DNA of 54,406 nucleotides, taken from IMG/VR virus record IMGVR_UViG_3300034072_001783, positions 1 to 54,406 of that record; one strand, written 5' to 3'. Origin of the DNA: a virus. How positions within the stretch are numbered: position 1 is the stretch's first letter; each line of letters opens with the position of its first letter. Shown piece by piece: positions 341-52,830 of the stretch. The translations under genes and the position numbers were made by a program. The notes below the pieces were generated by a model. It was not told where the DNA came from. It ran no database searches and worked only from the letters and a program-made list of their open reading frames with translations.

Positions 341-814
341 ATGACTAGAGAAGAACTCATATTAAAAATTAAACAACTTGCCCCTCAAGTATATAATTCA
401 TCTAAAAAAGCAGATGAAGCCGCAGTTGAATATGATGAGCTAACCAAATTCCCAGAACTTAAAAAAATATTAGTTGATCTTTTAACAACTGAATTTGATA
501 ACTTTCTTTCATCAATAGATTGGGTTTCTCCACGTCCTACTACCTTTAGAATTAACTTAAAAAATGGTCAAAACTTTTACTTACTTTATGGTAAAAGAAG
601 TTGGATAGCACAAGTTGAAGGTAAAAAATATTACCTTTTAAATTTACCTGAAGAAGAACGTGCTGCTGAGGCAATTGCTCGTATTTTAAGATATGGTAAA
701 AAAGAAGAAGAAAGTGAAGAAGGATTTGGTGGAGAAGAAATGGGAGGAGAAGAAATACCTGGTGGAGGAGAAGAACAACCAACTGAAACACCTGAAGAAA
801 CACCTGAGACATAA
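341..814 (+). CDS. Hypothetical protein with acidic Glu/Gly tail
   Basis: A 157-residue protein of unknown function. The first 115 residues look like a compact alpha/beta domain with helices at about 2-60, then strands including TTFRINLKNG and FYLLYGKRSW. From about residue 118 to the end it is low-complexity Glu/Gly/Thr/Pro, strongly acidic and probably disordered. The stop TAA overlaps the next ATG (TAATG at 812-816), so the two are probably translationally coupled. A minus-strand open frame opposite this gene is a shadow caused by its repetitive GAA codons. Confidence 0.65.
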   Translation: MTREELILKIKQLAPQVYNSSKKADEAAVEYDELTKFPELKKILVDLLTTEFDNFLSSIDWVSPRPTTFRINLKNGQNFYLLYGKRSWIAQVEGKKYYLLNLPEEERAAEAIARILRYGKKEEESEEGFGGEEMGGEEIPGGGEEQPTETPEETPET

Positions 815-1968
815 TGGACGTTTTAGAACAATTTTTAAATAGTATATCATATAAATTCCCTAAAGGATATCCTGATATAAAAGATAAACAAGATGTTCTA
901 TTATTAGAATCTCTTATTAATGAAGTATTAGGGGAAAAAACTCTACTCCTAGAGGAAGTTCCTAATATATCAGGTACTAGAAAGGCAGTGGCTTTAATTT
1001 CCCAAGAATTAGGAGATGAATATGGTATAAAACCCCTACCTTCCAAACCCAATAGACTCTCAGCTCCAGGCATTAAAGATCCAAAAATATTTTTAGATAT
1101 AATAAAAAAAGTATTTGGACCCGAAACTAAAATAAAAGTCTTTGGACCAAGACAAGGCTCAAACCCTAGTGGTAAATTTCCCCTATTTCAATTTGACACA
1201 GAAGAATTTGGGCAAGTAAATATGTTAACTAGTTTTAGTGCTCCTGGTGGTGCTGGAAAATCTAATGAGGCTGTATTTTTGGATACCTTAAATAATTTAA
1301 TAGCTCAAGCTGGGGACTCTGCAAAAATTGTAATCAAATCACCTGAATATACTGAAACTTTTAATAATGTAACTAAAGTTGAAGATTCCTCAAAATCAGG
1401 AGCAGGTGTTGGAGATAAATCAGACGCTCAATTTCTTTCAGATGGTAAAGTAGTAGCCAATATTTCCCTAAAACAAGATGGAGGATTTAGATGGGCTTCG
1501 GTAGCATCTAATTTCCCTGATTTTATAAAAACATTCCAAGAAAAAGCATTAGCAGGAGAAATCCCAGAATTAGAATTAAGACCTAACCCCGATGTTAAAG
1601 GTAAATATTTAATGTATAACTCTAATACGGGTGATCGAGTTACTAAAGTAATAATCCCTGATTTCATAACAGACGAAGATCAAATAAACACCTTTGTGTT
1701 TGGATCTGAAACACCAAAAACCATTGTAGTTTCTAGGACTTGGAAAGAAGATGATTTTAAACTAGATGGAGATACTATTACAGTACAAGCATCCCATATT
1801 TATAAAACAATAGAAGATATTAAAAAGGGTGATATATTACCTGTATTCACTATTGCTCAACATCAAAATAAGCCAATTGGGTTAGATTATAGAATATATC
1901 CTGAAAATATGGCTAAATTTGGTCCTAAAGCTAGAGGATTAGAATTATCAATTAATGATATAGTATAA
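814..1968 (+). CDS. Hypothetical protein with possible PD-(D/E)XK nuclease-like core
   Basis: A 384-residue protein. The centre has the layout expected of a PD-(D/E)XK fold: a helix carrying E152, a first strand with D204 (SDAQFLSDG), then a strand ending S218-L219-K220. This gives E...D-x13-SxK, with Ser in place of the usual Glu/Asp of ExK. An N-terminal helical region (1-50) and a beta-rich C-terminal part (from about 290) flank it. The motif match is visible in the sequence, but nuclease function is only an inference and the SxK form could mean an inactive or divergent member. The start overlaps the previous stop. Neighbours are other suspected virion-internal proteins. Confidence 0.6.
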   Translation: MDVLEQFLNSISYKFPKGYPDIKDKQDVLLLESLINEVLGEKTLLLEEVPNISGTRKAVALISQELGDEYGIKPLPSKPNRLSAPGIKDPKIFLDIIKKVFGPETKIKVFGPRQGSNPSGKFPLFQFDTEEFGQVNMLTSFSAPGGAGKSNEAVFLDTLNNLIAQAGDSAKIVIKSPEYTETFNNVTKVEDSSKSGAGVGDKSDAQFLSDGKVVANISLKQDGGFRWASVASNFPDFIKTFQEKALAGEIPELELRPNPDVKGKYLMYNSNTGDRVTKVIIPDFITDEDQINTFVFGSETPKTIVVSRTWKEDDFKLDGDTITVQASHIYKTIEDIKKGDILPVFTIAQHQNKPIGLDYRIYPENMAKFGPKARGLELSINDIV

Positions 1969-1972
1969 AATA

Positions 1973-3091
1973 ATGGAACGACTTAGAAAACTTATAAAAG
2001 AAGTATTATCTACTCCACCAAAACAAGATTCTTGTAACTGTGGATGTCATAGTTGTGAAAATGTTGGTAATCCGGGTGTAGTACTAAATGAAAGTATAGT
2101 TAAAAAGGATATACTATCGGAAAATCTGCGATATCACGTGGATAATAAACTCCCACTAACCGAAAACACGTTCCGCTACGGTTCTGAAGCTTTTCTTAAT
2201 TTATGGGCAGAAGCTCGCGCTTTGTATTTACGTGAAATAATTCATGTTAATGAAGATGATAAGCAAATTTTAGAGGAAACTGATTTAGGTAACTTTGGTT
2301 TATATGAGGGTGTTAAAGTACCTTTAGATTTACCCATGGCATATGAAAACCAATATGAGCCTATCCTAGAAGATATAGCCATATATGGTACTATATATGA
2401 AGCAGTAAATATAGAAAATTCATATAAAATAGATGCTATTGAATCAGATGGGGTTAGCAATAATTTTATATTCATAGATAAACACGGGATAAAAAGAAAA
2501 CTTCAATTTATTAAAGGAAATAGTGTTAAGCTATTATGGTTTGATCCTAAATCTCAAGAATGGACAACTGAAAGAATGCCTAGTAAATATGAAGATGAAA
2601 AAGTGATGAACACATTTGGTATGATACTTGTTAAAGTAATATTACCAAAATATGGCTCATTCTATTTTAAAGCATTAAGTGAGGCCCGTTATCGTTTATT
2701 TAGAGCACTTATCTATAATAATTTAGATATCTCTAAATATGAAATGGATTATGATGATGAGGCTAGAACTATTGAAGTGTATAAAATAGATACCCTAACA
2801 GAAGAAGGTAAAAAGAAAAATCCTCCACTTAATAAACCAAAACGTGGTGGATCTAAAAAATTCTATGTTTATGTTCGTAATCCAAAAACTAAAAAAATTA
2901 AAAAAGTTAGTTTTGGAGACACAACAGGCCTATCTGTAAAAATTAATGACCCTAAAGCTAGACAAGCTTTTGCTAAACGACATAAATGTGCTCAAGCTAC
3001 TGATCGTACGAAAGCGCGATATTGGTCATGTAGAATCGGTCGTTATTGGAAACAATTAGGAGGTTCAAAAAACTTTAGCGGTTTTTGGTAG
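1973..3091 (+). CDS. Cys-rich, possibly virion-internal protein with RHxC...ARYWSC C-terminal domain
   Basis: A 372-residue protein of unknown function with three recognisable parts. It starts with a short amphipathic helix (MERLRKLIKEVL) holding an I-K-E site at residues 8-10, like several neighbours. A Cys/His cluster follows at residues 21-28 (CNCGCHSC), likely to bind metal. The last 100 residues are very basic and end in a domain with R336-H337-x-C339 and ARYWSC (C353). I recognise that ending from virion proteins of marine T4-like phages, where its role is unknown. The middle (about 85-260) is unassigned. A perfect 8-bp hairpin overlaps its stop codon. Confidence 0.65.
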   Translation: MERLRKLIKEVLSTPPKQDSCNCGCHSCENVGNPGVVLNESIVKKDILSENLRYHVDNKLPLTENTFRYGSEAFLNLWAEARALYLREIIHVNEDDKQILEETDLGNFGLYEGVKVPLDLPMAYENQYEPILEDIAIYGTIYEAVNIENSYKIDAIESDGVSNNFIFIDKHGIKRKLQFIKGNSVKLLWFDPKSQEWTTERMPSKYEDEKVMNTFGMILVKVILPKYGSFYFKALSEARYRLFRALIYNNLDISKYEMDYDDEARTIEVYKIDTLTEEGKKKNPPLNKPKRGGSKKFYVYVRNPKTKKIKKVSFGDTTGLSVKINDPKARQAFAKRHKCAQATDRTKARYWSCRIGRYWKQLGGSKNFSGFW

Positions 3092-3108
3092 GAAATCGGC
3101 CCTACCAA
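3085..3108 (+). other. Hairpin over stop codon, before homing endonuclease gene
   Basis: TTGGTAGG (3085-3092) pairs perfectly with CCTACCAA (3101-3108) around an 8-base loop. The left arm contains the TAG stop of the preceding gene. No T-tract follows; the ATATTTATAATAAA motif starts directly after it. It may act as a weak terminator or fold the leader of read-through transcripts. Confidence 0.55.
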
Positions 3109-3116
3109 TATTTATA
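3109..3116 (+). promoter_or_regulatory. Late-promoter-like motif TATTTATA
   Basis: ATATTTATAATAAA sits only 5 bases before the ATG at 3122. If it is a -10 element, the transcript would be almost leaderless. It is one of about fifteen such intergenic motifs in the window. Confidence 0.5.
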
Positions 3117-3121
3117 ATAAA

Positions 3122-3760
3122 ATGGCTTATGTTTATCTTATAACCAATGTTACAAATGGAAAAAAATATATTGGTTCTTCTAGAAAATCTCAAATAGATG
3201 AAAATTACTATGGTAGTGGTAAAGCAATAAAAGATGCTTTAAAAAAATACGGTAAAAATAATTTTACAAGAGATATACTTTGGCAAGGTGAAGGAGATGC
3301 TCGTGGTGTAGAATCTCAATGGTTAGAATATTTTAATGCTTCTACAAATCCTCAATTCTATAATATGACAAATGATGCTAGAGGAAATGGACTCCATAAA
3401 GAAGAGACCAAACTTACTGTTAGTGAGAAACTAACTGGAAGAAAATTCTCAAAAGAAATATGTGAAAAAATATCCAAAGCAAAAACTGGAAAACCCAACC
3501 CTAAAAAAGGAAAACCAGATGGCCCCAAACCTAGAGTATCTGAAGCCCATAAAGGTAGAACCAGCCCAAATAAAGGCAAAGGAACCCCAGTAGCCCTTTA
3601 TACAACCTCTGGAGAATATCTCAACACATACTCAAATTATACTCTTCTAGCTCTTGCTCTTAATATAAACCCAGAAACAGTAAGATGTCATTTAGTAGGA
3701 AAAGCAAATACAATATGTAACAAGCAATATAAAGTTAAATATGTATTAGGTGATGGATAG
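3122..3760 (+). CDS. GIY-YIG homing endonuclease
   Basis: A 212-residue free-standing homing endonuclease. The N-terminal GIY-YIG nuclease domain shows VYLITN (residues 4-9) and KYIG (15-18), then R21 and an acidic ESQWLEYF helix around residue 64 that fits the metal-binding Glu of the family. Residues 98-145 hold NUMOD3-like basic segments (KLTGRKFSKE, KISKAKTGKP, KGRTSP). Residues about 155-208 resemble an IENR1/NUMOD1 helix-turn-helix DNA-binding module. It sits between two genes that look like members of one functional block and has its own upstream hairpin and late-type motif. The family cuts cognate DNA to spread its own gene; the target here is unknown. Its last codons overlap the next start. 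Confidence 0.9.
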   Translation: MAYVYLITNVTNGKKYIGSSRKSQIDENYYGSGKAIKDALKKYGKNNFTRDILWQGEGDARGVESQWLEYFNASTNPQFYNMTNDARGNGLHKEETKLTVSEKLTGRKFSKEICEKISKAKTGKPNPKKGKPDGPKPRVSEAHKGRTSPNKGKGTPVALYTTSGEYLNTYSNYTLLALALNINPETVRCHLVGKANTICNKQYKVKYVLGDG

Positions 3761-4988
3761 ATTGGATAAACTTACTAATGAAGTCCTACAAGAGGAAAAA
3801 GAAAAACGTGACAGATGTTTACGTATTGCTGACCGTAAATTCAAAAAACCATCCGCTTACAAATCTGGTGCTGTAGTTAGATGTCGTAAAGGAGATATTT
3901 GGAAAGGTTTAAATGAATATAATAATGTAGGTCCTTCTACCCCTAAAGTATATATTGTAAAAAATGACGGGACTTATAAAGAAGTCCCAATTAAATTACT
4001 ATCTAAAATACCTAATTTAATATATGATATGGGTGGAGGTGAAACTAATTACTACCCTGAAAAAAATATTGTAATAGTAGATAACATCCCCATAGAACAA
4101 TTCGCTAAAGAACCAGGTGAGATAAGAGATGAAAAGATATATGTTGAATATAATTTAAATCAACCTTATAGCTTTCCAAAAGCAAATAAAATTATAGCTG
4201 CTCAATTAGTATATAACTTAGATAATGTTGAATCATTTGCTACAACAGTAAATAATTCACTTAAAGATAATGGTACCTTTGAATTTTACAGTGACGTAAT
4301 GATAAAAAAGGATAAAGACTTTTTAAACTACTTATACAGTGAATATGGGTTTGGTTTCCCTAAAAATTTAAGTCAATTTAAACAAGAACCAATTCAATTA
4401 AAAAAAGGAAAATTTGTTGAACCTATTATATCTTACATTTACAATGTAACAGATGTTGATGGAAATACATCAAAAATATCAGTTACTAAAGAAGGTAGGT
4501 GGTGGAAATATAATAAAATTGAAGGTAATATAAAATTCAAACCTGTTAAATGGAGTATTGAGCCTGAATATAAATATAACGATATAACTCCAAGTAAGGA
4601 GAATGTTTTAAATACTTTTTCCAAAGCATTAGGAACTGATATTATAGATTTTAAAAAATTAAATGAAAATTTAAAAGAAACCGATGACCCTCAATCAGGT
4701 AAAGCAGCACCTTACGGCTCAGGATATTCTAAATTAAAAGACATAATTAGAGAAATCATCCAAGAAGATGAATCTTTAAGAAAATGGTTCAAACGCTCAG
4801 GTACCCCAGGTAAAGAAGGTGGTTGGGTTGATTGTAACGCACCAATTAAAAAAGATGGTAAAATAGTAGGATATAAACCTTGCGGGAGAAAAAAAGGAGA
4901 AAAACGTGCAAAATACCCTTCATGTCGTCCTACACCTGCTCAATGTAAAACACCTGGTAAAGGTACTAAATGGGGAAAAACAAAATAA
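3753..4988 (+). CDS. Candidate virion-internal protein with degenerate methyltransferase-like core
   Basis: A 411-residue protein starting at ATG 3753, which follows a GTG and overlaps the endonuclease stop. The N-terminus (MDRLDKLTNEVLQEE) is an amphipathic helix with L-Q-E at 12-14. Residues 20-52 form a Cys-containing domain ending VVRCRKGDIW. Residues 88-180 read like a class I SAM methyltransferase: a glycine motif IYDMGGG (90-96), an acidic strand end at D110, PYSFP (138-142) and LKDNGTFEFY (170-179). A second helix (LKDIIREIIQE) lies near 328-338. The C-terminal 60 residues are a Cys-rich basic domain (WVDCNAP, KPCGRKKGEKR, YPSCRPTPAQC). Catalysis is uncertain because the core is divergent. 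Confidence 0.65.
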   Translation: MDRLDKLTNEVLQEEKEKRDRCLRIADRKFKKPSAYKSGAVVRCRKGDIWKGLNEYNNVGPSTPKVYIVKNDGTYKEVPIKLLSKIPNLIYDMGGGETNYYPEKNIVIVDNIPIEQFAKEPGEIRDEKIYVEYNLNQPYSFPKANKIIAAQLVYNLDNVESFATTVNNSLKDNGTFEFYSDVMIKKDKDFLNYLYSEYGFGFPKNLSQFKQEPIQLKKGKFVEPIISYIYNVTDVDGNTSKISVTKEGRWWKYNKIEGNIKFKPVKWSIEPEYKYNDITPSKENVLNTFSKALGTDIIDFKKLNENLKETDDPQSGKAAPYGSGYSKLKDIIREIIQEDESLRKWFKRSGTPGKEGGWVDCNAPIKKDGKIVGYKPCGRKKGEKRAKYPSCRPTPAQCKTPGKGTKWGKTK

Positions 4989-4989
4989 T

Positions 4990-5430
4990 ATGGATAACTT
5001 TGATTTAAAAAAATATTTAGCAGAAGGTAAATTATATGAGGCAGCTATGGCTTGTCCTTTACCAACCCAAGATCTAGAACTTAACACTCGAAATAGAGAT
5101 TCAGCTATTAAAGCAGACTATATTAAATATGGTCCTTTAAATGTTGATGAACCTGGAGACTATTGGGATGAGTTAGCAGAACATTGGAATACAACAGTTG
5201 AAGCTGCTAAACAATCTTTATGTGGCAATTGTGCTGCGTTTGATATTTCTCCAAGAATGGAAGATTGTATGCCTGGACCATTACAAGATGAAGATGGTAA
5301 ATTAGGGTATTGTTGGATGCATAGTTTCAAATGCCACTCAGCTCGTACTTGTAGAACATGGGCTAAAGGTGGTCCTATAGTTAAAGATACTATATCTTAT
5401 GAGTGGCAAGAACGTAAAGAAAATGATTAA
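4990..5430 (+). CDS. Cys-cluster protein, possible metal or Fe-S binder
   Basis: A 146-residue protein. I chose the ATG at 4990, one base after the previous stop, because the protein then begins MDNFDLKKYLAEGKLYEA, a helix with L-A-E at 10-12 like its neighbours. The C-terminal half carries C78-x2-C81-x11-C93-x14-C108, followed by C115 and C121 (CGNCAAF, GYCWMHSFKC, RTCRTW). The first four cysteines have the order and rough spacing of a high-potential iron-sulfur protein; a zinc site is also possible. I recognise the family from marine T4-like phages but know no demonstrated function. It overlaps the next gene by eight bases. Confidence 0.7.
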   Translation: MDNFDLKKYLAEGKLYEAAMACPLPTQDLELNTRNRDSAIKADYIKYGPLNVDEPGDYWDELAEHWNTTVEAAKQSLCGNCAAFDISPRMEDCMPGPLQDEDGKLGYCWMHSFKCHSARTCRTWAKGGPIVKDTISYEWQERKEND

Positions 5431-5869
5431 ACTTATAGACATATTAAAAGAAATCAACCAACCATCTCCTCCGGATGTTTTGTACCATTTTACAACACCT
5501 GAAAATTTTGTTAAAATATTAAATTCTGATCGTTTAAAAGCTCATTCCAAATTCAATCAAATTTCATTCACTGAAGACCCAGATTTATGGGCATTCCAAG
5601 AATTTCCCGACTCAAACCAAGAAATAGGAGTTCGTTTAGAATTTGAAACGGATAGTTTACCTCCTGTAAAACCATTTACATTCCAAGGAGCACCTGGTGA
5701 ATTCTTAGAACACGAAAAAGAATGGATAACTACTTCAGGAGATATAACAGATATAGAAGGTAGAATTATGGGTTCAGGTACTCTAGAGATAACAGCCCTT
5801 GAATATTGGAAAAAATACTTACAAGATAATATACCAGGACACATATATACCAGAATAAAATTTATATGA
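5423..5869 (+). CDS. ADP-ribosyltransferase-like protein
   Basis: A 148-residue protein. The ATG at 5423 is preferred to the one at 5399 because it gives the N-terminal helix MIKLIDILKEINQP (L-K-E at 8-10) seen in neighbours and only an 8-base overlap. Three features match the compact ART fold of the DarT/Tpt1 type: LYHFTTPENFVKIL (H22 in YHFT, then a helix), a strand ISFTEDPDL (48-55), and an acidic segment EHEKEWI (96-102) where the catalytic Glu would lie. Such enzymes transfer ADP-ribose or a phosphate from NAD+-linked chemistry to protein or nucleic acid. T4 packages the ART Alt, so a similar role is plausible but unproven. Confidence 0.6.
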   Translation: MIKLIDILKEINQPSPPDVLYHFTTPENFVKILNSDRLKAHSKFNQISFTEDPDLWAFQEFPDSNQEIGVRLEFETDSLPPVKPFTFQGAPGEFLEHEKEWITTSGDITDIEGRIMGSGTLEITALEYWKKYLQDNIPGHIYTRIKFI

Positions 5870-6126
5870 CCCCATACACAGACATAGAAGTTACAGACAA
5901 ATATATTATACGTGAATTTAGCGAAAATATAGATCCTATTGAATTACTTTGGCATCGGGATTTAGAAGATCGAACAGTAGAAATACTTGGAGAAACAAAT
6001 TGGAAAGTACAACTTGATAATGAGTTACCAACCTCACTAAATCAACCAATATTTATAGAACGTCACCAATGGCATCGCGTAATTAAAGGTGATGGTAATT
6101 TAAGATTAAAAATACATTTAGACTAG
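5866..6126 (+). CDS. Small cupin-like phage protein
   Basis: An 86-residue all-beta protein. It contains ELLWHRDLEDRTVEIL, then WKVQLDN, IFIERHQWHRVIKGDG and a final strand LRLKIHLD. The two His-containing strands and the glycine turn suggest a single small cupin-like barrel that may bind a metal or ligand. I know similar short proteins from other T4-like phages without a function. The ATG overlaps the preceding stop (ATGA), so it is likely co-translated with the ART-like gene. The gene ends inside an intrinsic terminator that closes this block. Confidence 0.65.
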   Translation: MTPYTDIEVTDKYIIREFSENIDPIELLWHRDLEDRTVEILGETNWKVQLDNELPTSLNQPIFIERHQWHRVIKGDGNLRLKIHLD

Positions 6127-6149
6127 ATTCATAGCCTAGTCGTTTTTTT
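6121..6149 (+). terminator. Intrinsic terminator (first of two)
   Basis: GACTAG (6121-6126) pairs with CTAGTC (6136-6141), followed by G and seven Ts. The left arm includes the TAG stop of the preceding gene. Confidence 0.7.
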
Positions 6150-6171
6150 AAAGATAAAATTTTCGAGAGCT

Positions 6172-6203
6172 GTGACCTCTATTTGGAGGTCACTCTTTTT
6201 TTT
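6172..6203 (+). terminator. Intrinsic terminator (second of two)
   Basis: GTGACCTC (6172-6179) pairs perfectly with GAGGTCAC (6186-6193) around a 6-base loop and is followed by TCTTTTTTTTT. With the terminator just upstream it makes a tandem stop between the 5' block and the oxidoreductase gene. Confidence 0.85.
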
Positions 6204-6218
6204 CATATATTAAATTAT

Positions 6219-6229
6219 AAATTTTTATA
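6219..6229 (+). promoter_or_regulatory. Variant of the late-promoter-like motif
   Basis: AAATTTTTATAAAATG immediately precedes the start at 6232. It differs from the ATATTTATAA consensus in the 5' half, so I call it only a possible variant. A promoter is needed here because two terminators lie upstream. Confidence 0.3.
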
Positions 6230-6231
6230 AA

Positions 6232-7578
6232 ATGCAAGATAAAATTGTAATTGTAGGAGCAGGAGTAGCAGGAGTAAATGCTGCAACTAAGCTAGTAGAT
6301 GAAGGATATCCCGGTAATATGATTACCATAATTGATATGGGTAAATCACCCTATGAAAGAAAACCTGAAGAGGTAATGACAGGCTTTTTAGGCGCTGGGG
6401 GCTGGTCAGATGGTAAACTAACATACCATACTGCTATTGGTGGTCAATTATCCAAATATTGTGGTGAAGAAAAAGCAATGGAGTTAATGGATCAAGTTAT
6501 CACTAACTTTAAACGTTTCCACCCTAAACCAGAGGAAGTACAATGTTCAGATCCTCAAGCAGAACCAGATTTTATTAAACCATATTTTGGTTTAAGATTG
6601 TTTCCTGTATGGCATGTTGGTACTGACTACTTGCACGAAATTGGTAAAAATTGGTATGATTATTTAGTTGATAAAGGTGTAAAATTTGAATGGGAAACTA
6701 AGGTAACTAATATCTCTTTTGGAGCCCAAGAATTATGGACTGATAAGAGTGTAGATGATAATGATTGGATTGGGTATGACCGTTTAATATTTGGAGTAGG
6801 AAAATCAGGCATCGACTTCGGTAAAAAATTAGCAGAACAATATGACCTACCAACAGAACCAAAATCAGTACAAATAGGTGTTAGATTTGAAGCACCACAA
6901 AAACATTTTCAAAAATTAATTGATGTTAGTTATGATTTTAAACTTTATAGAAAATTTGAAGACAAAGGTGTATCCTTACGTTCATTTTGTACTAATAATA
7001 ATGCCGCCTATGTAGCAACTGAAGTAACATATGGAGATCATACCTATAATGGTCATGCTAAAAAAGATGAAGCATATCGTAATGATATGACTAACTTTGG
7101 TATATTAATGGAAATCAATGGTATAGATAATCCATTTGATTGGTCAAGAGAGGCTGTTAAAAAATTACAAAAAGATGGTATGGGTACTTATTTTTCACCT
7201 AACCACACTCGTTTACCCTCTAAAACATCTGAAGGTACCTATATACAATGTAATGTAGTAGATAGTATTCAACCATTATATGATGCTATAGGTGATTATG
7301 CTCTTTATATTGAGGAGTTTATTGAGGATATGAAAAAAGTATTCCCAACACTTGAAAATGATTGGGGTATTTACATGCCTGAGGTAAAATATCTTTCACC
7401 TGAACCCTTAGTAAATTATAAAGATCTTAGTTTAACTAAATTCCCTAACGTACATTTCGTAGGTGATGCTTTAAGCGCTCGAGGCATTACAGTTAGTGGT
7501 GCACAAGGAATATATGTTGTTGAAGTATTTTTAAATGAAATATTAGAATCAGATAATTATTATAAACAGATACAATGA
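6232..7578 (+). CDS. FAD-dependent oxidoreductase (COG2509-like)
   Basis: A 448-residue flavoprotein-type enzyme. The N-terminal Rossmann motif is IVIVGAGVAG (G9, G11, G14), with an acidic end of the second strand at D35. GAGGWSDGKL follows near residue 60. The C-terminal FAD motif is HFVGDALSARGITVSGAQGI. This layout matches the uncharacterised FAD-dependent dehydrogenase group COG2509, whose substrate is unknown. The gene comes right after two terminators and overlaps the next gene by ATGA, so the pair is probably a two-gene unit. A metabolic oxidoreductase is not part of the T4-like core and is best viewed as accessory; the length looks full. Confidence 0.85.
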   Translation: MQDKIVIVGAGVAGVNAATKLVDEGYPGNMITIIDMGKSPYERKPEEVMTGFLGAGGWSDGKLTYHTAIGGQLSKYCGEEKAMELMDQVITNFKRFHPKPEEVQCSDPQAEPDFIKPYFGLRLFPVWHVGTDYLHEIGKNWYDYLVDKGVKFEWETKVTNISFGAQELWTDKSVDDNDWIGYDRLIFGVGKSGIDFGKKLAEQYDLPTEPKSVQIGVRFEAPQKHFQKLIDVSYDFKLYRKFEDKGVSLRSFCTNNNAAYVATEVTYGDHTYNGHAKKDEAYRNDMTNFGILMEINGIDNPFDWSREAVKKLQKDGMGTYFSPNHTRLPSKTSEGTYIQCNVVDSIQPLYDAIGDYALYIEEFIEDMKKVFPTLENDWGIYMPEVKYLSPEPLVNYKDLSLTKFPNVHFVGDALSARGITVSGAQGIYVVEVFLNEILESDNYYKQIQ

Positions 7579-8114
7579 AAATAGGATTTTGTGGTACTAT
7601 GAGTGTTGGAAAAACTACTCTAGTAAACGCTCTTAAGGAACAGCCTGAATTTAAGGATTATGTTTTCACAACAGAAAGATCTAAATATTTAAGAGATTTG
7701 GGTATTCCCCTTAATACTGATTCAACTCTAAAAGGTCAAGTAATATTCTTAGCAGAACGTTGTAGTGAACTTCTACAACCAAAAATCATCACAGATAGAA
7801 CCGTGATTGATGTTATGGCTTTTACAAATGCTGCTCAATCTATTCCTATAAGACACGCAGACACATATTATGAATTAGCTGCTAATTTTATTAAAGACTA
7901 TGACTATATATTTTATATATCCCCACTAGGAATCGAAGTTGAAGATAATGGGGTAAGAGAAACAGATCTAAAATATAGAAAAAAGATTGATAGAGAGATT
8001 AGAGATATATTAGAATATAACAAACATAAAATAAAAAACTATTATGAAATTTCTGGATCAACAGAAGAACGTGTGGAAAAAGTAATTTCTTCTATATTCC
8101 ACCCATATTTATAA
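7575..8114 (+). CDS. P-loop NTPase/kinase-like protein (AAA_28, NadR-kinase-like)
   Basis: A 179-residue P-loop protein. The Walker A motif GTMSVGKTT is at residues 7-15. An acidic DRTVIDVMAFTN segment (about 75-86) matches the DR(T/S) region of nucleoside and nucleotide kinases, and basic residues around YRKKIDREIRDIL fit a lid. The overall pattern is that of the AAA_28 family, which includes the ribosylnicotinamide kinase half of NadR. The true substrate could be a nucleotide, deoxynucleoside or NAD precursor. It overlaps the oxidoreductase stop (ATGA) and likely works with it or is merely co-expressed. Confidence 0.75.
   Translation: MKIGFCGTMSVGKTTLVNALKEQPEFKDYVFTTERSKYLRDLGIPLNTDSTLKGQVIFLAERCSELLQPKIITDRTVIDVMAFTNAAQSIPIRHADTYYELAANFIKDYDYIFYISPLGIEVEDNGVRETDLKYRKKIDREIRDILEYNKHKIKNYYEISGSTEERVEKVISSIFHPYL
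8106..8113 (+). promoter_or_regulatory. Late-promoter-like motif TATTTATA
   Basis: ATATTTATAATAAAAA spans the stop codon of the NTPase gene and lies 16 bases before the ATG at 8130. A direct T4-type TATAAATA also occurs at 8122-8129 but touches the ATG, too close to serve that start with a normal leader. Confidence 0.5.
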
Positions 8115-8129
8115 TAAAAAATATAAATA

Positions 8130-8729
8130 ATGAAAAAATCTTACTTATTAGAAATTATACGTGAAGAAATCCATAATGTTCTTTCTGAAATGGATCTAAA
8201 CGAAATGGCCAAAATTTCTGGAGACCTTAAATCCGCAATTGAAAAAGTAATAAAAGACAATCCTGATTTAGAAGGATTGCCTTTAAAGAAAAAAATTAAA
8301 GCTGATAAAAGTGTAGAGGATGCTCTTGAAGGGGATACTCTATATGATAACCAACTTAATAAATTTATTGCTTTAACTAAAGGAGAAAGAGAAGTTGGAC
8401 AACGTGGACGAAAAGCAGATCCAAACAAAGAACCTAAAAAACCTACTACAGGCAAACGAGGCCGCCCCGCTGAAAAAATGTCAGGGATGGATGATGAAGA
8501 TAAAGAGGCTGTAAAATCTATGGGTAAAGATGAAACAGCAAAAGAATTAGCGTCAACACCCGAAGAAAAGAAAGAAAAATTCAATTTGGGTCTAAAGTTT
8601 ATTAAAAAATATAAAGACGACAAACCAAAAGTAGATGCTTATTTAAAGAAAGCAAAAGAAGAATATAAACTTTCAAAGGCAATGATTGATGATCTTAAGC
8701 GTGCTGCTGGAAGAGAGGTTGAAGCCTAA
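8130..8729 (+). CDS. Lysine-rich AT-hook protein, candidate packaged DNA-binding protein
   Basis: A 199-residue highly charged protein. It opens with the helix MKKSYLLEIIREEIHNVLSE, holding I-R-E at 10-12, L-S-E at 18-20 and L-N-E at 23-25, all potential T4-type protease sites. Two AT-hook-like cores are visible: QRGRKADP (91-98) and KRGRPAEK (109-116). The C-terminal half is Lys/Glu-rich helix. AT-hooks bind the minor groove of AT-rich DNA, which suits this genome. By analogy with T4 internal proteins it may be packaged with the DNA, but that is inference; a nucleoid-associated role in the host is an alternative. Confidence 0.65.
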   Translation: MKKSYLLEIIREEIHNVLSEMDLNEMAKISGDLKSAIEKVIKDNPDLEGLPLKKKIKADKSVEDALEGDTLYDNQLNKFIALTKGEREVGQRGRKADPNKEPKKPTTGKRGRPAEKMSGMDDEDKEAVKSMGKDETAKELASTPEEKKEKFNLGLKFIKKYKDDKPKVDAYLKKAKEEYKLSKAMIDDLKRAAGREVEA

Positions 8730-9441: not shown

Positions 9442-11022
9442 ATGAGCCAAGATATAAAACAAATATTAAGAGAAGAATACATAAAGTGTGCAACAAACCC
9501 TGTATACTTTATGAAAAAATATTGTTACATCCAACACCCCCAAAGAGGAAGAATCCAATTCCACTTATACCCCTTCCAGGAAAAAGTCTTAAAACTATTT
9601 CAAGATAACCCATATAGTATAATTTTAAAATCAAGACAATTAGGAATATCCACTCTTGCTGCTGGCCATGCTTTATGGTTGATGGTCTTTTATGAAAATA
9701 AAAACGTACTTGCTTTAGCTACTACTCAAGCAACTGCACGTAATCTAGTTTCCAAGGTACAATTTATGTATGAAAATCTTCCATCTTGGTTAAAGATAGG
9801 ACACGAAGAAAATAATAAACTTTCTTTAAAACTTAAAAACGGATCTAAGATACAAGCCAAATCATCTAGCCCAGATGCCGCACGATCAGAAGCAGTATCA
9901 TTGCTAATAGTTGATGAGGCTGCTTTTATTGAAAATATTGCAGAAACATGGGCCTCAGCTCAACAAACGTTAGCAACGGGTGGTGGAGCTATAGTGTTAT
10001 CCACTCCCTATGGTACTGGTAATTGGTTCCACCAAATGTGGGAAACTGCTGAAAATTCCTTGGATAGTGAATTCCTCCCAATTAAATTACCATGGCAAGT
10101 TCACCCAGAAAGAGATCAATCTTGGAGAGATAAACAAGATGTTCTTTTGGGTGATCCTAGATTAGCTGCTCAAGAATGTGATTGTGACTTTAACACCTCA
10201 GGAGATACGGTTTTTTATAATGAATTCATGGAATTCTATGAGAAAACTTATGTTAAAGATCCCTTGGAAAAGCGAGGAGCTGACCGTAACTTATGGATAT
10301 GGGAACCTGCAGATTATTCTCGCAATTATATGGTGTTAGCAGATGTTGCTCGAGGAGATAGTAAAGATTTTTCAGCATTCCATGTGATGGATGTTGAAAA
10401 TAACACTCAGGTTGGAGAATATAAAGGACAGATAGGAACAAAAGAGTTTGGTCATTTATTGGTAGGAATATCAACGGAATATAATAATGCTTTATTAGTG
10501 GTTGAAAATGCAAGCATTGGGTGGTCTACAATACAAACTATATTGGAAAGAGGTTATCAAAATTTTTACCATTCACCAAAAAGTGGAGAAATTAAAGCCG
10601 ATTCATATTTTAATGAATATTCTGACATATCTAAAATGACCCCTGGTTTTACAATGAACACCAGAACTAGACCAATTTGTATTAATAAATTCCAAGAATC
10701 TATTTCCGACAAAGGAGTAATATTCCAGTCTAGGAGACTACTTTCTGAAATGAAAACTTTTGTTTGGAAGAATGGTAGAGCAGAAGCCCAATCAGGATAT
10801 AATGATGATTTAGTTATGTCTTTTGCAATGGGGCAATATGTTAGATCAACTGCTCTACAATTTAATAAATATGGTGAAGATATGTATAAAAGCATGTTAA
10901 ATAGTACCACTTCAACAAATACCCCATATTTTGGAGGATATTCAGCTAATACACAAGATAATCCTTGGAAAATGGATAATCCATATTCTAATGGAAAAGA
11001 AGATATTAGATGGTTACTCTAA
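9442..11022 (+). CDS. Terminase large subunit (gp17-like)
   Basis: A 526-residue DNA-packaging motor and headful nuclease. In the ATPase domain, Walker A is KSRQLGIST (63-71), Walker B with catalytic Glu is LLIVDEA (154-160), and the coupling motif is STPYGTGN (187-194). The C-terminal RNase H-like nuclease shows LADVARGD (D301), a second acidic strand LLVVENAS (about 352-359) and NDDLVMSFAMG (from 454). Length is slightly below T4 gp17. It acts at the portal vertex during packaging and is followed directly by the portal gene. No small terminase is recognisable in the window. Confidence 0.96.
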   Translation: MSQDIKQILREEYIKCATNPVYFMKKYCYIQHPQRGRIQFHLYPFQEKVLKLFQDNPYSIILKSRQLGISTLAAGHALWLMVFYENKNVLALATTQATARNLVSKVQFMYENLPSWLKIGHEENNKLSLKLKNGSKIQAKSSSPDAARSEAVSLLIVDEAAFIENIAETWASAQQTLATGGGAIVLSTPYGTGNWFHQMWETAENSLDSEFLPIKLPWQVHPERDQSWRDKQDVLLGDPRLAAQECDCDFNTSGDTVFYNEFMEFYEKTYVKDPLEKRGADRNLWIWEPADYSRNYMVLADVARGDSKDFSAFHVMDVENNTQVGEYKGQIGTKEFGHLLVGISTEYNNALLVVENASIGWSTIQTILERGYQNFYHSPKSGEIKADSYFNEYSDISKMTPGFTMNTRTRPICINKFQESISDKGVIFQSRRLLSEMKTFVWKNGRAEAQSGYNDDLVMSFAMGQYVRSTALQFNKYGEDMYKSMLNSTTSTNTPYFGGYSANTQDNPWKMDNPYSNGKEDIRWLL

Positions 11023-15737: not shown

Positions 15738-16349
15738 ATGAGTAAGCAAGTATTAATAGAGACTCAAAATTTCATTTCCACTTTATCTCCCTTAACCGAA
15801 GGAAAAACCTCAGAACGTGGTAATCCCATTGTTGAAGGAATTTTAGCCACAGCTGAGGTTAAAAATGGTAATGGGAGATATTATAAAAAAGATTTGTGGG
15901 AACGCGAGATAGATAAGTATATGGAGTCTGTAAAAGAAAAGCGCGCTCTAGGAGAACTTGATCACCCTGAATCCTCTATAATTAACCTTAAAAATGTATC
16001 ACACAATATAGCTGAGTTATGGTGGAATGGAGATAACATAATGGGTAAAATAGAAATTCTACCCACTCCCTCAGGAAACATACTTAAAGCTTTACTTGAT
16101 AGTGGAATTAAAGTAGGTGTATCCTCACGTGGTATGGGTTCATTGAAAGAAGTAAATGGAATACTAGAGGTACAAGATGATTTTGATCTATTATGTTGGG
16201 ACTTCGTTTCTACACCATCCAACCCCGGATCATGGATGTCTCCACTTAAAGAAGGAATTGATTATTCAAATCTCCCAAACCCCTATTTAAATGTTCAAAA
16301 AGTAATAACGGATATTCTTTGTTCTCAAGGTAGTTGTCCTATATTTTAA
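15738..16349 (+). CDS. Prohead core protease (gp21-like, S78 type)
   Basis: A 203-residue serine protease of the T4 gp21 group that matures head proteins, typically after [IL]-x-E. The catalytic His is in GELDHPE (H76) and the nucleophile in GVSSRGMGS (S129 or S130). The following DDFDLLCWDFVSTPSNPG segment is also typical. Length is close to T4 gp21. The N-terminus itself contains L-I-E at 6-8, which fits self-processing. It is followed by a strong terminator and then the scaffold gene, the usual T4 order 21-22-23. Confidence 0.95.
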   Translation: MSKQVLIETQNFISTLSPLTEGKTSERGNPIVEGILATAEVKNGNGRYYKKDLWEREIDKYMESVKEKRALGELDHPESSIINLKNVSHNIAELWWNGDNIMGKIEILPTPSGNILKALLDSGIKVGVSSRGMGSLKEVNGILEVQDDFDLLCWDFVSTPSNPGSWMSPLKEGIDYSNLPNPYLNVQKVITDILCSQGSCPIF

Positions 16350-16548: not shown

Positions 16549-17787
16549 ATGGCTACAAACAGAGATTTGCTTAAAGAAGCAATCGCAGAAGCTAAAGCTG
16601 TAAAAGAAATGGCTATAGCAAATGCAAAAGCAGCTCTTGAAGAAGCTTTCACACCTCAACTAAAATCTATGCTTGCTACTAAACTTCAAGAAATGGAAGA
16701 AGAAGATTTAGAAGAAGCAGGATTTGGCAAAATGTCTTCCGATGCTACTGAAGGATTCAGTGATATGGAAGAAAAAGCTCTTGATGAGGAAGAAACTACT
16801 GAAGAGTTAGATCTTGATGAACTTCTTGCAGAACTAGAAGAAGCTGAAGATGATGACATGATGTATGAGGCTGAAGAAGCTGAAGAAGACATGATGGATG
16901 AAGAAGAAGCAGAATCACTAGATTTGGAAGATATGTCTGAAGAAGATTTAAAATCATTCATCGAAGATGTAATCGCTGATATGATCGAAGCTGGTGAATT
17001 AGAAGCTGGTGAAAGTGAAGAAGGCGAGGAAATGGAAGATGAAGAAATGGAAGATGAAATGGAAGAAGAAGATGAAGAAGTAAATATCGATGAACTTCTT
17101 GCTGAAATTGATTCTATGGATGAAGAAGAGGAAATGATGGAAGAAGGCCTTATGGATAAAATCGTTAAGGCAGTAAACCGATTTGGCTCCTCAGGAAGAA
17201 TTGAAGATTTGAAAAAAGAAATCCCTGCAAAAGTTGCCGCAGGTAAAAAACTAGCAGCATCCGGAAAGATTGAATCTTTTACAGAACCTACAGAAGCTGA
17301 TATTAATACTATAGTTAAAGCAGCTGAAGAAGATGGTGGTACTGGAAGAGTTGAGATTAAAGGAGGTAAATTAGTTTATACTCCTGGGTCCGAAGCTAAA
17401 GGAGCAGCACAGGCATCTACTTTTGAAAATCTTCAAAAAGAACTTTCTGAAGCTCACAAAACAATTCAAACTCTTCGTTCCGAATTAAATGAAGTTAATT
17501 TGTTAAATGCTAAATTGCTTTATACAAACAAAATCTTCAAAGGTAAAAACTTGACAGAAAGTCAAAAAGTAAAAGTACTTGAAACTTTTGATAAAGCTAC
17601 TACTGTTAAAGAAGTTAAACTTGTTTATGAAACCCTAAATGAAGGAATTAACACAAACAAAAGACCAATTTCTGAAAACTTAGGAAGTGCATCAAAAGCA
17701 ATGGGTACAACTAAAAAACCTATAATTGAAGCTAATGATCAATTCGCTCGTATGAGAGAATTAGCGTTCTACAGTACAAAACATTAA
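16549..17787 (+). CDS. Prohead scaffold/core protein (gp22-like)
   Basis: A 412-residue protein that would fill the prohead as scaffold and be degraded by the protease. Residues about 40-200 are extremely acidic, dominated by Glu, Asp, Met and Leu, with many [IL]-x-E sites (for example L-K-E at 8-10). A more mixed domain follows (about 200-290), then a helical region (ENLQKELSEAHKTIQTLRSE) and a conserved-looking end QFARMRELAFYSTKH. T4 gp22 is shorter, about 270 residues, but composition and position between protease and major capsid protein agree. It has its own leader after a terminator. Confidence 0.85.
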   Translation: MATNRDLLKEAIAEAKAVKEMAIANAKAALEEAFTPQLKSMLATKLQEMEEEDLEEAGFGKMSSDATEGFSDMEEKALDEEETTEELDLDELLAELEEAEDDDMMYEAEEAEEDMMDEEEAESLDLEDMSEEDLKSFIEDVIADMIEAGELEAGESEEGEEMEDEEMEDEMEEEDEEVNIDELLAEIDSMDEEEEMMEEGLMDKIVKAVNRFGSSGRIEDLKKEIPAKVAAGKKLAASGKIESFTEPTEADINTIVKAAEEDGGTGRVEIKGGKLVYTPGSEAKGAAQASTFENLQKELSEAHKTIQTLRSELNEVNLLNAKLLYTNKIFKGKNLTESQKVKVLETFDKATTVKEVKLVYETLNEGINTNKRPISENLGSASKAMGTTKKPIIEANDQFARMRELAFYSTKH

Positions 17788-17814: not shown

Positions 17815-19494
17815 ATGTCAAACTTAAATTCACTTTTAGAAAGTTCTGCTAGCGGTTGGAGAAACATGCAGAACGAAGGTGCTCGTATCGCGAGCAAGTG
17901 GGGAAAAACAGGTTTGTTGGAAGGTCTTTCTACAGAGATCGATAAAAACAACATGGCCTTGATCCTTGAAAACCAAGCAAAACAATTAGTAACTGAAGCA
18001 TCTGCTACTGATCAAGGTGGTGGTACTTTTTCTGTAGGAAATGGTGCACAATGGGCAGGAGTTGCTCTTCCATTGGTACGTAAAGTATTTGGATCTCTTT
18101 CAACTAAAGAATTCATGTCAGTACAACCAATGAACCTTCCTTCAGGTCTAGTATTCTTTTTGGATTTCCAATATGGAGATGCTAAACAATTAAATTTTGG
18201 CCCAGGTGGTAATCCTTATTCTTCTCCTGCTTCAATGTATGGTAACACTAACCCAGGTGCCTCTGCAGATGCTAGTGGTGGTCTTTATGGTGCAGGACGA
18301 TTTGGTTACTCAATCAACCAAAAATCAGCTTCTTTAACAGGTACTATTACAAAAGCAACTTGGGCTCAGGTTGACTATACTGCTGAACTTTCATCTTCAA
18401 TTGCTGCAGGTGTTACTTATTCTGCAGTATCAATTAATATGAGTTCCCTTACTGGATCTGGTGCAACTAACCCAGACTTCAAAGGTGTTCGTGCTTTCAC
18501 AGCTACTTCAGCTTCAATTGCTACTACTTCAACTATCTTACCTCAATACACTTCAGTTAATGAAGCTACCGGAACTGTAACTTTCATTCACCAAGTATCC
18601 TCAGCTTCATTCGCTGATTTGAGTGAGCCATTCTATGTAACTTACAACGTTCAACCAACAGATAACAACCGTGGTGACTTTGAAGATGCATCAGGTGCTG
18701 GTTACCCAAATGCTAACTCAACTTCAGCTGATCAACTTGCTATCCCAGAAATCAATGTTAAATTGAAATCTGAAGCAATCGTTGCTAAAACACGTAAATT
18801 GAAAGCACAATGGACTCCTGAGTTCGCTCAAGACCTTAACGCTTACCAATCACTTGATGCTGAAGCAGAATTGACATCTATCATGAGCGAGTATATCTCA
18901 TTAGAGATTGATCTTGAAAACCTTGATATGTTGATCCAAGATGCTTCTGCAGCAGATGAGTACTGGTCAGCTGTTAATAACCGTTCATTGAACTCTGCTA
19001 AAACAGGATTTGATGATCTAGGATTCTACAACACACAAGGTCAGTGGTTCCAAACTCTAGGAACAAAAATGCAAAAAGTTTCAAACAAAATCCACCAGAA
19101 AACTCTACGTGGAGGTGCAAACTTTATGGTAGTTTCTCCTACAGTTGCAACAATCCTTGAATCAATCCCTGGATTCGCATCAACATCAGATGGTGAAGCA
19201 ACTAAAATGTCTTACGCATTTGGTATCCAAAAATCAGGTCAGTTAAATAACCGTTTCACAGTTTATAAGAACCCTTATATGACTGAGAACGTTATTTTGA
19301 TGGGTTATAGAGGATCTCAGTTCCTTGAAACAGGTGCTGTATTTGCTCCATACATTCCATTGATCATGACTCCACTAGTATACGATCCAGATACATTTAC
19401 ACCACGTAAAGGTCTATTGACTCGTTACGCTAAGAAAATGATCCGTCCGGAATTCTACGGTCGTATCTTCGTGAGCGACTTGGCTTCTATCTAA
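17815..19494 (+). CDS. Major capsid protein (gp23-like)
   Basis: A 559-residue HK97-fold capsid subunit. The N-terminus ends in LILENQAKQLVTEASATDQ; V-T-E61/A62 lies where T4 gp23 is cut (after Glu65), so the mature protein probably starts near residue 62. Conserved segments include PLVRKVFGSLSTKEFMSVQP, MNLPSGLVFFLDFQYG, the TRKLKAQWTPEFAQDLNAY region and GYRGSQFLETGAVFAPYIPL near the end. Codon use is visibly richer in C-ending codons than in many neighbours, as expected for a highly expressed gene. An A-rich leader precedes it and a perfect terminator follows. Confidence 0.97.
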   Translation: MSNLNSLLESSASGWRNMQNEGARIASKWGKTGLLEGLSTEIDKNNMALILENQAKQLVTEASATDQGGGTFSVGNGAQWAGVALPLVRKVFGSLSTKEFMSVQPMNLPSGLVFFLDFQYGDAKQLNFGPGGNPYSSPASMYGNTNPGASADASGGLYGAGRFGYSINQKSASLTGTITKATWAQVDYTAELSSSIAAGVTYSAVSINMSSLTGSGATNPDFKGVRAFTATSASIATTSTILPQYTSVNEATGTVTFIHQVSSASFADLSEPFYVTYNVQPTDNNRGDFEDASGAGYPNANSTSADQLAIPEINVKLKSEAIVAKTRKLKAQWTPEFAQDLNAYQSLDAEAELTSIMSEYISLEIDLENLDMLIQDASAADEYWSAVNNRSLNSAKTGFDDLGFYNTQGQWFQTLGTKMQKVSNKIHQKTLRGGANFMVVSPTVATILESIPGFASTSDGEATKMSYAFGIQKSGQLNNRFTVYKNPYMTENVILMGYRGSQFLETGAVFAPYIPLIMTPLVYDPDTFTPRKGLLTRYAKKMIRPEFYGRIFVSDLASI

Positions 19495-51350: not shown

Positions 51351-52297
51351 TAACAGAATTAAGACCCCACTATAAACCATTTGAATATCAAACAGCATTT
51401 GAATTTTATAAAGATCAACATAGAGCCCATTGGCTTGCAGATGAAGTACCTCTCTCCTCAGACTTGAATGATTGGAAACTTAAACTTACTGAAAGTGAAA
51501 AAAATTTGATTGGTAATATTTTAAAGTCATTTGCCCAAACAGAGACGTATGTAAACGATTATTGGTCAACAAAAGTGGCTGTATGGTTTCCTAAACACGA
51601 AATTAAAGCTATGGCGTGTGCATTTGCTGATTTTGAATCGATTCATGCTGAGGCTTATGCTCGTTTAAATGAAGAATTGGGTCTTGATGATTTTGAGGCC
51701 TTTATGGAAGACGAGGAAGCAAAAGCTAAAATCGATCGTTTAGTTGAACTGCCTGGAGATACATTGCATGAAAAAGCACTTTCACTAGCTATATTCTCTG
51801 CATTTACAGAAGGTGTAAATTTGTTTTCTTCATTTGCCGTGTTGATGTCTTTTCAATTAAGAAATTTAATGAAAGGAACAGGGCAAATTGTAGAATGGTC
51901 TGTGCGTGATGAATCACTTCACTCAAAAGCAGGATGCTGGTTATATAGAACCTTATTAGAGGAAGATCCAACATTAGACACCCCCGAATTAACACAAGCA
52001 ATTTATGAAGCTTGTGATTTATCTGTAAAATTAGAATTCGATTTTATAGAAAAAGCATTTGAAATGGGTGATATTGAAGGACTAACTAAAGAACAACTAA
52101 AAAATTTCATTAAAGAACGAGCAAATCAAAAATTAGTTGAATTAGGTTATAATCCAATTTACAACGATATTGATCCTAACCTTTTAAAACAAATGGAATG
52201 GTTCGGGCATTTAACAAGTGGTAAAACACACCAAGATTTCTTTGCAAATAGAGTAACCGATTATTCAAAATCAACCGCTGACTGGTCAGACCTATGA
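51347..52297 (+). CDS. nrdB: Ribonucleotide reductase small subunit, class I (NrdB)
   Basis: A 316-residue radical-generating subunit. Metal ligands align by spacing with E. coli NrdB: E66, E97 and H100 in FESIHAEAY, E155, E189 and H192 in RDESLH. The radical tyrosine equivalent is Y104 (E97-x2-H100-x3-Y104, as E115-H118-Y122). The first ligand is Glu (FAQTETYV), where E. coli has Asp84. The 31- and 34-residue spacings are exactly kept. The C-terminus (DFFANRVTDYSKSTADWSDL) would dock on NrdA. It overlaps the helicase stop and the next gene (ATGA at both ends). Confidence 0.93.
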   Translation: MITELRPHYKPFEYQTAFEFYKDQHRAHWLADEVPLSSDLNDWKLKLTESEKNLIGNILKSFAQTETYVNDYWSTKVAVWFPKHEIKAMACAFADFESIHAEAYARLNEELGLDDFEAFMEDEEAKAKIDRLVELPGDTLHEKALSLAIFSAFTEGVNLFSSFAVLMSFQLRNLMKGTGQIVEWSVRDESLHSKAGCWLYRTLLEEDPTLDTPELTQAIYEACDLSVKLEFDFIEKAFEMGDIEGLTKEQLKNFIKERANQKLVELGYNPIYNDIDPNLLKQMEWFGHLTSGKTHQDFFANRVTDYSKSTADWSDL

Positions 52298-52830
52298 AAC
52301 CAGAAAAACTACGTAATATAATTAAAGAAGAACTTCAAAAATATTTTGAAATTCATCCATATTCTCTTGAAGATGAGCTTATAATGGAAACTGAAATTAT
52401 GCTTGGAGAACTTCTCAATCCTGATAATGCTCTTTCATATGAAAAAGTGAGTAAAGGATTTTACACTTATGAAGATCCTAATGGGGTTAAATTTTTTGTT
52501 CGAGCAGCTTATGTTCCTGAACCACAAAATTACTTTGAATTTAAAACAGGGTGGTTTGATCAAAATGGGAAAGCAACTTATGAACCTTCTGTACCATACG
52601 GGAACCAAGAAACCTCAGCCTTAGATATCAATTCCCGTTCAGATACAGTAGCAAAAATTTATAGAGATGAAATTTTACCTTTTTTCAAACAACAAACATT
52701 AACAGATACAATGGTTATAAAACCCATTTCTTCAAGTAGAATGAAGTTTGCTGAACGTTTAGTTAAAAAATTTACACCTGAAGACTTTACAATAGACTTT
52801 AAAAATAGAGAAATAACAATAAAAAAATGA
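52294..52830 (+). CDS. Hypothetical protein between nrdB and nrdA with REE-type N-terminal helix
   Basis: A 178-residue protein of unknown function. Its first 19 residues, MKPEKLRNIIKEELQKYFE, are an amphipathic helix with I-K-E at 10-12, like that of the candidate virion-internal proteins at 1973, 5423 and 8130. A beta-rich middle (GFYTYEDPNGVKFFVRAAYV, FEFKTGWFDQNG) and a C-terminal alpha/beta part (VIKPISSSRMKFAERLVKKF) follow. It overlaps nrdB and nrdA by ATGA, so it is co-translated with them. That makes it an odd insert in an enzyme operon. Confidence 0.65.
   Translation: MKPEKLRNIIKEELQKYFEIHPYSLEDELIMETEIMLGELLNPDNALSYEKVSKGFYTYEDPNGVKFFVRAAYVPEPQNYFEFKTGWFDQNGKATYEPSVPYGNQETSALDINSRSDTVAKIYRDEILPFFKQQTLTDTMVIKPISSSRMKFAERLVKKFTPEDFTIDFKNREITIKK

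Follow-up and report, generated by a model that had tools for sequence, protein, structure and literature searches.

Five proteins encoded by a T4-like phage fragment, and possibly a sixth, begin with short N-terminal segments that are very probably capsid-targeting propeptides of the T4 internal-protein kind, and the proteins would accordingly be packaged, cleaved, and injected with the phage DNA. The fragment is an IMG/VR virus record of 54,406 bases, called the window here and meaning the whole stretch of DNA that was analyzed. Such tags were found in the window virus and in hundreds of its uncultured relatives. The sequence-only reading that preceded this analysis had taken the segments for a capsid-targeting tag on otherwise unrelated proteins, and that reading is supported. 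The support consists of N-terminal enrichment, agreement with the residue and spacing rules of T4 gp21 and IPIII, restriction of the tags to viruses, their link to T4-type head genes, their presence on unrelated bodies, and tag types that are interchangeable on one body. Our high confidence extends to the proteins at 1973, 3753, 4990, 5423, and 8130 as members of the set (Table 1). The protein at 52294 is the weakest member, and its inclusion could fall either way.

Table 1. Putative tagged proteins and head genes of the window; a slash marks the predicted cleavage point.
Feature	Coordinates	Strand	Tag or supporting evidence
Module related to the tagged ORFs	814..1968	+	45-aa N-terminal KFPKGYPD domain, ending LINEVLGE
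Tagged protein, 372 aa	1973..3091	+	Tag MERLRKLIKE/VLS at 1973-2002
Tagged protein, 411 aa	3753..4988	+	Tag MDRLDKLTNEVLQE/EK at 3753-3794
Tagged protein, 146 aa, Cys-rich body	4990..5430	+	Type A tag MDNFDLKKYLAE/GK at 4990-5025
Tagged protein, 148 aa, ADP-ribosyltransferase-like body (DarT/Tpt1-like fold)	5423..5869	+	Type B tag MIKLIDILKE/IN at 5423-5452
Tagged protein, 199 aa, basic AT-hook-like body	8130..8729	+	Type C tag MKKSYLLEIIREEIHNVLSE at 8130-8189
gp21-type prohead protease	15738..16349	+	phrog_207, E 1.2e-59
Propeptide-like stretch of gp21, ending ...SPLTE/GK	15738-15800	+	N-terminus of 15738..16349
gp22-like scaffold, C-terminal tail ...FARMRELAFYSTKH	16549..17787	+	Position upstream of the major capsid protein, and relatives
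T4-type major capsid protein	17815..19494	+	phrog_138, E 1.1e-66
Possible tagged protein, 178 aa, between nrdB and nrdA	52294..52830	+	Type C tag MKPEKLRNIIKE/EL at 52294-52329

Among isolates, only the Flavobacterium phages "immuto", which came from the Baltic Sea, have DNA similarity to the window, and they are the nearest to it. The window has the T4-type head gene order, running from terminase (9442) through portal (11049), gp21 (15738), scaffold (16549), and major capsid protein (17815) to the tail genes, and thus encodes a gp21-type protease, a gp22-like scaffold, and a gp23-type capsid protein. Within the capsid protein, QLVTE61/ASA is probably the maturation site, judging from its alignment with FLTE65/AE of T4 gp23. 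In capsid proteins, the position aligned with T4 E65/A66 usually reads V/I-x-E with A, S, or N next, and because V or I rather than L stands at P3, the local protease specificity may be slightly wider than the tag motif. Upstream of the tagged genes, the 45-aa domain of ORF 814-1968 (MD.LE.FL..ISYKFPKGYPD....QD..LLE) is common to divergent downstream bodies in many relatives, where sites like LINEVLGE often close it, and it may be another, larger targeting module.

Several other genes of the window were noted in passing. The effector cluster includes an untagged FAD-dependent oxidoreductase-like gene (6232-7578, phrog_12409), unlike its neighbors in this respect. Amid the effector and tail genes, ORFs 3122-3760 and 35291-35890 have GIY-YIG-like N-termini (YLITNVTNGKKYIGSS and GIYKITSPTGKIYIGQS) and are probably homing endonucleases. 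Two adjoining ORFs, 29955-32087 and 32127-33836, have similar N-termini and the appearance of tail-sheath paralogues.

All six ORFs named by the sequence-only reading are present, with N-termini as quoted there, each a short amphipathic stretch that contains an [IL]-x-E site. The body at 1973 consists of a Cys cluster (CNCGCHSCENVG) after the tag and a C-terminal phrog_7595 domain, and relatives with this body carry tag forms that include MERLRKLIKE, MDKTRLKKLIQE, MKHADLIKRLIKE, and MKKSELKQLI. That at 3753 combines a split DUF5872-like region with a class I methyltransferase-like middle domain. The protein at 4990 has 194 relatives among viral contigs, and its body (cluster 3) is seen behind either a type A or a type B tag; matches to it in non-T4 phages begin only from residue 18-30. 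One non-T4 phage, Actinomycetia phage DSL-LC01, has the Cys-rich body as the C-terminal portion of the protein encoded at L086:2659-3393, a gene that directly precedes two genes annotated as capsid maturation proteases. The longest ORF of the ADP-ribosyltransferase (ART) gene opens at 5399, but an 87%-identical relative (L052) begins exactly at MIKLIDILKE, which supports the start at 5423; the length and spacing of this tag are exactly those of IPIII. The N-terminus at 8130, MKKSYLLEIIRE/EIHNVLSE/M, contains two [IL]xE sites. As type C tags have two candidate sites each, their exact cut is uncertain. For the protein at 52294 there is one distant relative, L004 (MKKQDLKQLIREEL).

For a measure of enrichment we used a strict T4-based motif, hydrophobic-x-x-hydrophobic-[LI]-x-E within the first 24 aa. 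It occurs in 6 of the 52 ORFs of the window, whereas shuffling gives about 1.2 (at most 5 across 400 shuffles). The tag at 3753 falls outside the strict form because T occupies P3 of its first E, and its second E (LQE at residue 14) fits. Genome-wide, strict matches exceeded the shuffled expectation in immuto (20 versus 5.6), G023 (26 versus 6.4), and G004 (15 versus 5.6). T4 itself has 17 matches versus 8.0, among them IPII, IPIII, gp24, gp68, and Alt, all known gp21 substrates (PMC5694885). The strict motif was nevertheless rejected as a stand-alone classifier; it is not sufficient because several of the T4 matches are not head proteins and because the large terminase subunit (9442-11022), one of the six window matches, fits through its N-terminus IKQILREEYIKCA, a false positive.

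A larger sample took one representative per body family (n = 259) across 80 contigs that encode a relative of 4990. Here 183 N-terminal [LI]xE sites (residues 2-25) were seen versus 91.9 expected from shuffles (z 11.2), and [LI]xD, [LI]xK, VxE, and aromatic-xE had no N-terminal excess over shuffles in the same families. The excess of [LI]xE is confined to N-termini. Hydrophobic residues were also more frequent at N-terminal than at internal sites, both at P4 (57% versus 30%) and at P7 (57% versus 38%), and were found jointly at the two positions in 39% versus 13%. The sequence-only reading had proposed a comparison with shuffled and non-virion proteins in related phages, and the pattern passed it.

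crAss-like phages of Bacteroidetes are at background for the strict motif (2 versus 2.7 by shuffle in crAss001, 2 versus 3.5 in phi14:2), and HTVC008M, of whose genome a third was read, has no excess (1 of 49 ORFs). T4-like phages therefore do not all have these tag types. When the type A pattern was run over 257 Gb of cellular genomes, it gave 17 matches, with clear tagged ORFs only in L378 and L387. Each of these two has a further tagged ORF adjoining and thus looks like a phage contig binned into a metagenome-assembled genome. The tags are virus-specific.

The sequence-only reading had described a single shared helix. The tags it pointed to are present, but they are of several types rather than one: A (FDLKKYLxE), B (MIKLxDILKE), and C (K..L..LIKEEI..xLxE) in the window, with a further type F (RMQxLAGIITE) in relatives. 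We scanned the viral collection with coding patterns for tag A (NFDLKK[FY]LxE) and tag B (MIKL-x-x-x-LKE). Among the matches listed, the two patterns opened at least 250 usable bodies in at least 121 similarity clusters, four of which contain both tags; in related contigs the tags stand before at least 110 unrelated bodies, and a genome has about 10-20 credible tagged genes. Although ATG is not part of the type A pattern, it lies two to three residues before the tag in 133 of 137 cases among the matches listed. With only the upstream half-tag required, E follows three residues on in 92 of 117 cases for A and 163 of 215 for B, and for A the E is replaced by D just once in 117. In the complete viral scan, a codon-scrambled type B pattern gave 16 matches, none opening a credible gene, versus at least 120 for the true order.

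Several bodies occur behind different tags, at times exchanged at the predicted cleavage point. Homologous ART bodies follow a type B tag in L030 (MIKLLDILKEITE/GKQVGTLYHFT) and a type C tag in L122 (MKKSQLKQLIKEEILKALNE/GKQVGTLYHFT), joined at [LI]xE. Likewise, the methyltransferase-like body of 3753 lies behind tag B in L125, L131, and L121 (MIKLLDLLKE or MIKLVDLLKE), and its DUF5872-like part follows several different tags, including MIKLSDILCEVLNE in L126. When junctions were tested across all body pairs without restriction, the count was 25 of 205 versus 8.0 expected; non-tagged families dilute this test, and it serves as minor support only.

Type F tags, R[ML]QxLAG-[IL][IL]-x-E, are absent from the window and present in relatives. 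Their core, R[MLW]QxL[AS]G, was located across 4,707 ORFs 38 times in the first 25 residues, 14 times in the last 15, and 3 times elsewhere. The C-terminal cases are mostly identifiable as gp22-like scaffold (e.g., ...RMQKLAGIIK), and the conserved scaffold tail of relatives is R[MWF][QRK]xLAG[IL], as in the immuto scaffold at 125626-126867 (L001:34388-35629). The N-terminal cases fall into 30 body clusters, and 30 of the 38 have E where it is expected. These cargo proteins thus appear to carry the scaffold's own C-terminal tail followed by a protease site, and the copied tail is the strongest hint of the docking place.

Most large contigs with the tags also encode the T4-type head machinery. 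The association was counted within 28 large contigs behind the tag or 4990 loci: 24 encode gp21, and the same 24 encode a T4-type major capsid protein; the remaining four, linear records of 99-124 kb, encode neither. Every large tag-bearing contig that includes head genes has both gp21 and the T4-type capsid protein, and gp21 is present in 17 of 20 large contigs found by the tag pattern alone. The gp21 relatives themselves have an N-terminal [LI]xE in 20 of 20 cases, at about residues 15-23 in 19 of them.

Two of the bodies could be assigned a predicted fold, in agreement with the sequence-only reading. The model of the 5423 body (pLDDT 75) had DarT and Tpt1 as top Foldseek hits in the PDB (E about 0.02, probability 0.97-0.99), which supports an ART fold; its Pfam matches are below cut-off. 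In the confident part of the 3753 model, approximately residues 60-220, class I SAM methyltransferases alone were on top, supporting a Rossmann methyltransferase fold for the middle domain. Annotation by sequence was sparse. PHROGs and Pfam gave almost no matches for the tagged bodies of the window, 40 type A bodies scanned with Pfam had only two marginal matches between them, and most tagged bodies lack a Pfam match. Cargo among relatives includes an ART-PolyVal match in L116 (E 1.3e-27), a thioesterase or alpha/beta hydrolase, a ParB N-terminal domain, a P-loop protein, and, below cut-off, a tagged 5'-nucleotidase in immuto (E 4.7e-5). Pfam relates the tag B protein at L133:96-635 weakly to the 2'-5' RNA ligase-like and Acb1 anti-CBASS families, the latter at E 3.7e-4 and below the Pfam cut-off. 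Since phmmer of this body against the PDB gave no match, the Acb1 label rests on these sub-cut-off matches, and the protein is a candidate for a pre-delivered counter-defence enzyme.

We propose that the hydrophobic P7 and P4 residues of the tag would dock the protein on the assembling prohead core, at the site of the gp22-like scaffold. The gp21-type protease would then cut after [LI]-x-E, a step strongly supported by the residue specificity, so that the tag is lost and the mature protein stays in the head. As in T4, the cargo would go into the next host with the DNA and act ahead of phage gene expression. Docking, cleavage, retention, injection, and early action on the host each have a T4 precedent. 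The cargo would comprise swappable host-takeover and counter-defence enzymes (ART, methyltransferase-like, P-loop, 5'-nucleotidase, alpha/beta hydrolase, and Acb1-like) along with many proteins of unknown function. A broader version, to which we give about equal weight for and against, is that interchangeable tags, one of them derived from the C-terminal tail of the scaffold, attach cargo to different places on the core, with 10-20 or more effectors per virion drawn from a pool of more than 100 families (Acb1-like, ART, and nucleotidase among them) by recombination at the cleavage site, forming a pre-emptive counter-defence package.

Alternatively, the tags might direct proteins to the prohead core, or to some other phage assembly, and remain uncleaved, the helix being a docking motif only. 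Type F tags do resemble a scaffold tail that looks uncleaved, and hydrophobic residues at P4 and P7 would by themselves suffice for docking. Docking alone, however, leaves unexplained the preference for E over D at P1 and for L or I over V at P3, as well as the ART body homology that starts right after the site in swapped tags, and we consider it improbable. Less likely again is a general N-terminal helix with some other purpose in the infected cell, such as binding to the membrane, host RNA polymerase, or the replisome. Some tagged ORFs do lie outside the head cluster (52294, and 1803 and 24569 in immuto), but the co-occurrence of the tags with gp21 and the T4-type capsid protein, the identity of one tag type with the scaffold tail, the IPIII spacing, and the background level in crAss-like phages of Bacteroidetes all speak against a purpose unrelated to the capsid.

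That AT-rich phages produce amphipathic N-termini rich in lysine and glutamate, with [IL]xE arising from composition, is hardly credible for the group. Single matches such as terminase occur by chance, yet the shuffled, internal-window, scrambled-pattern, residue-substitution, and non-T4-phage controls do not reproduce the signal. For the set as a whole chance is refuted, though individual members, 52294 for one, may still owe their match to it. Capsid-targeting propeptides remain the reading that we prefer.

The principle is already known from T4, in which IPI, IPII, IPIII, and Alt carry a capsid-targeting sequence (CTS; Mullaney and Black 1996, reviewed in PMC9026906 and PMC5694885) and the packaged proteins include an ART (Alt) and a restriction inhibitor (IPI) (PMC9026906, PMC5694885). 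IPIII mutants showed that residues 4 and 7 (P7 and P4) target the protein and that residues 8 and 10 (P3 and P1) are needed for processing; aspartate at residue 10 blocked processing and left targeting intact (PMC9026906). The proteins described here share with the T4 internal proteins a putative N-terminal propeptide of 10-20 residues, hydrophobic P7 and P4, [IL]-x-E as the predicted cleavage site, unrelated mature bodies with an ART among the cargo, and a T4-type gp21, scaffold, and major capsid protein. They differ in that the tag sequences are dissimilar to the T4 CTS beyond spacing and fall into at least four types instead of one, one of which copies the scaffold tail, and in the number of cargo genes, about 10-20 credible ones per genome and at least 110 body families; packaging, moreover, is predicted here from sequence. 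In phiKZ and SPN3US (gp175/gp245), the prohead protease similarly cleaves ejected head proteins at X-x-E sites and removes N-terminal portions of them, including repeated sites inside one propeptide (PMC5694885, PMC9026906), but those sites are S/A-x-E and the propeptides often exceed 100 residues, whereas here they are [LI]xE and 10-22 residues. Cargo domains overlap with those of polyvalent proteins (ART-PolyVal in L116, ParB_N), for which a role as injected effectors in counter-defence and host modification has likewise been proposed (Iyer et al. 2017, PMC5512222); those are large multidomain fusions, and the proteins here are short, with a single body and a removable tag. Open-access papers were searched for earlier accounts of comparable tag sets among aquatic T4-like phages, and only work on T4 and SPN3US came up. 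Judged against these papers, the novelty lies in how large the cargo set is, in the several tag types that can replace one another, and in a tag that copies the tail of the scaffold.

If the reading is correct, the T4 internal-protein system would be a general cargo platform and not a T-even peculiarity. A ten-residue rule would make hundreds of "hypothetical proteins" into one searchable class of injected effectors, in one of the commonest aquatic phage groups, and the tags would serve as a sequence rule for finding such effectors in metagenomes. The finding would also suggest where on the scaffold cargo docks, and would direct attention to new counter-defence enzymes and to packaging tags that are ready for use.
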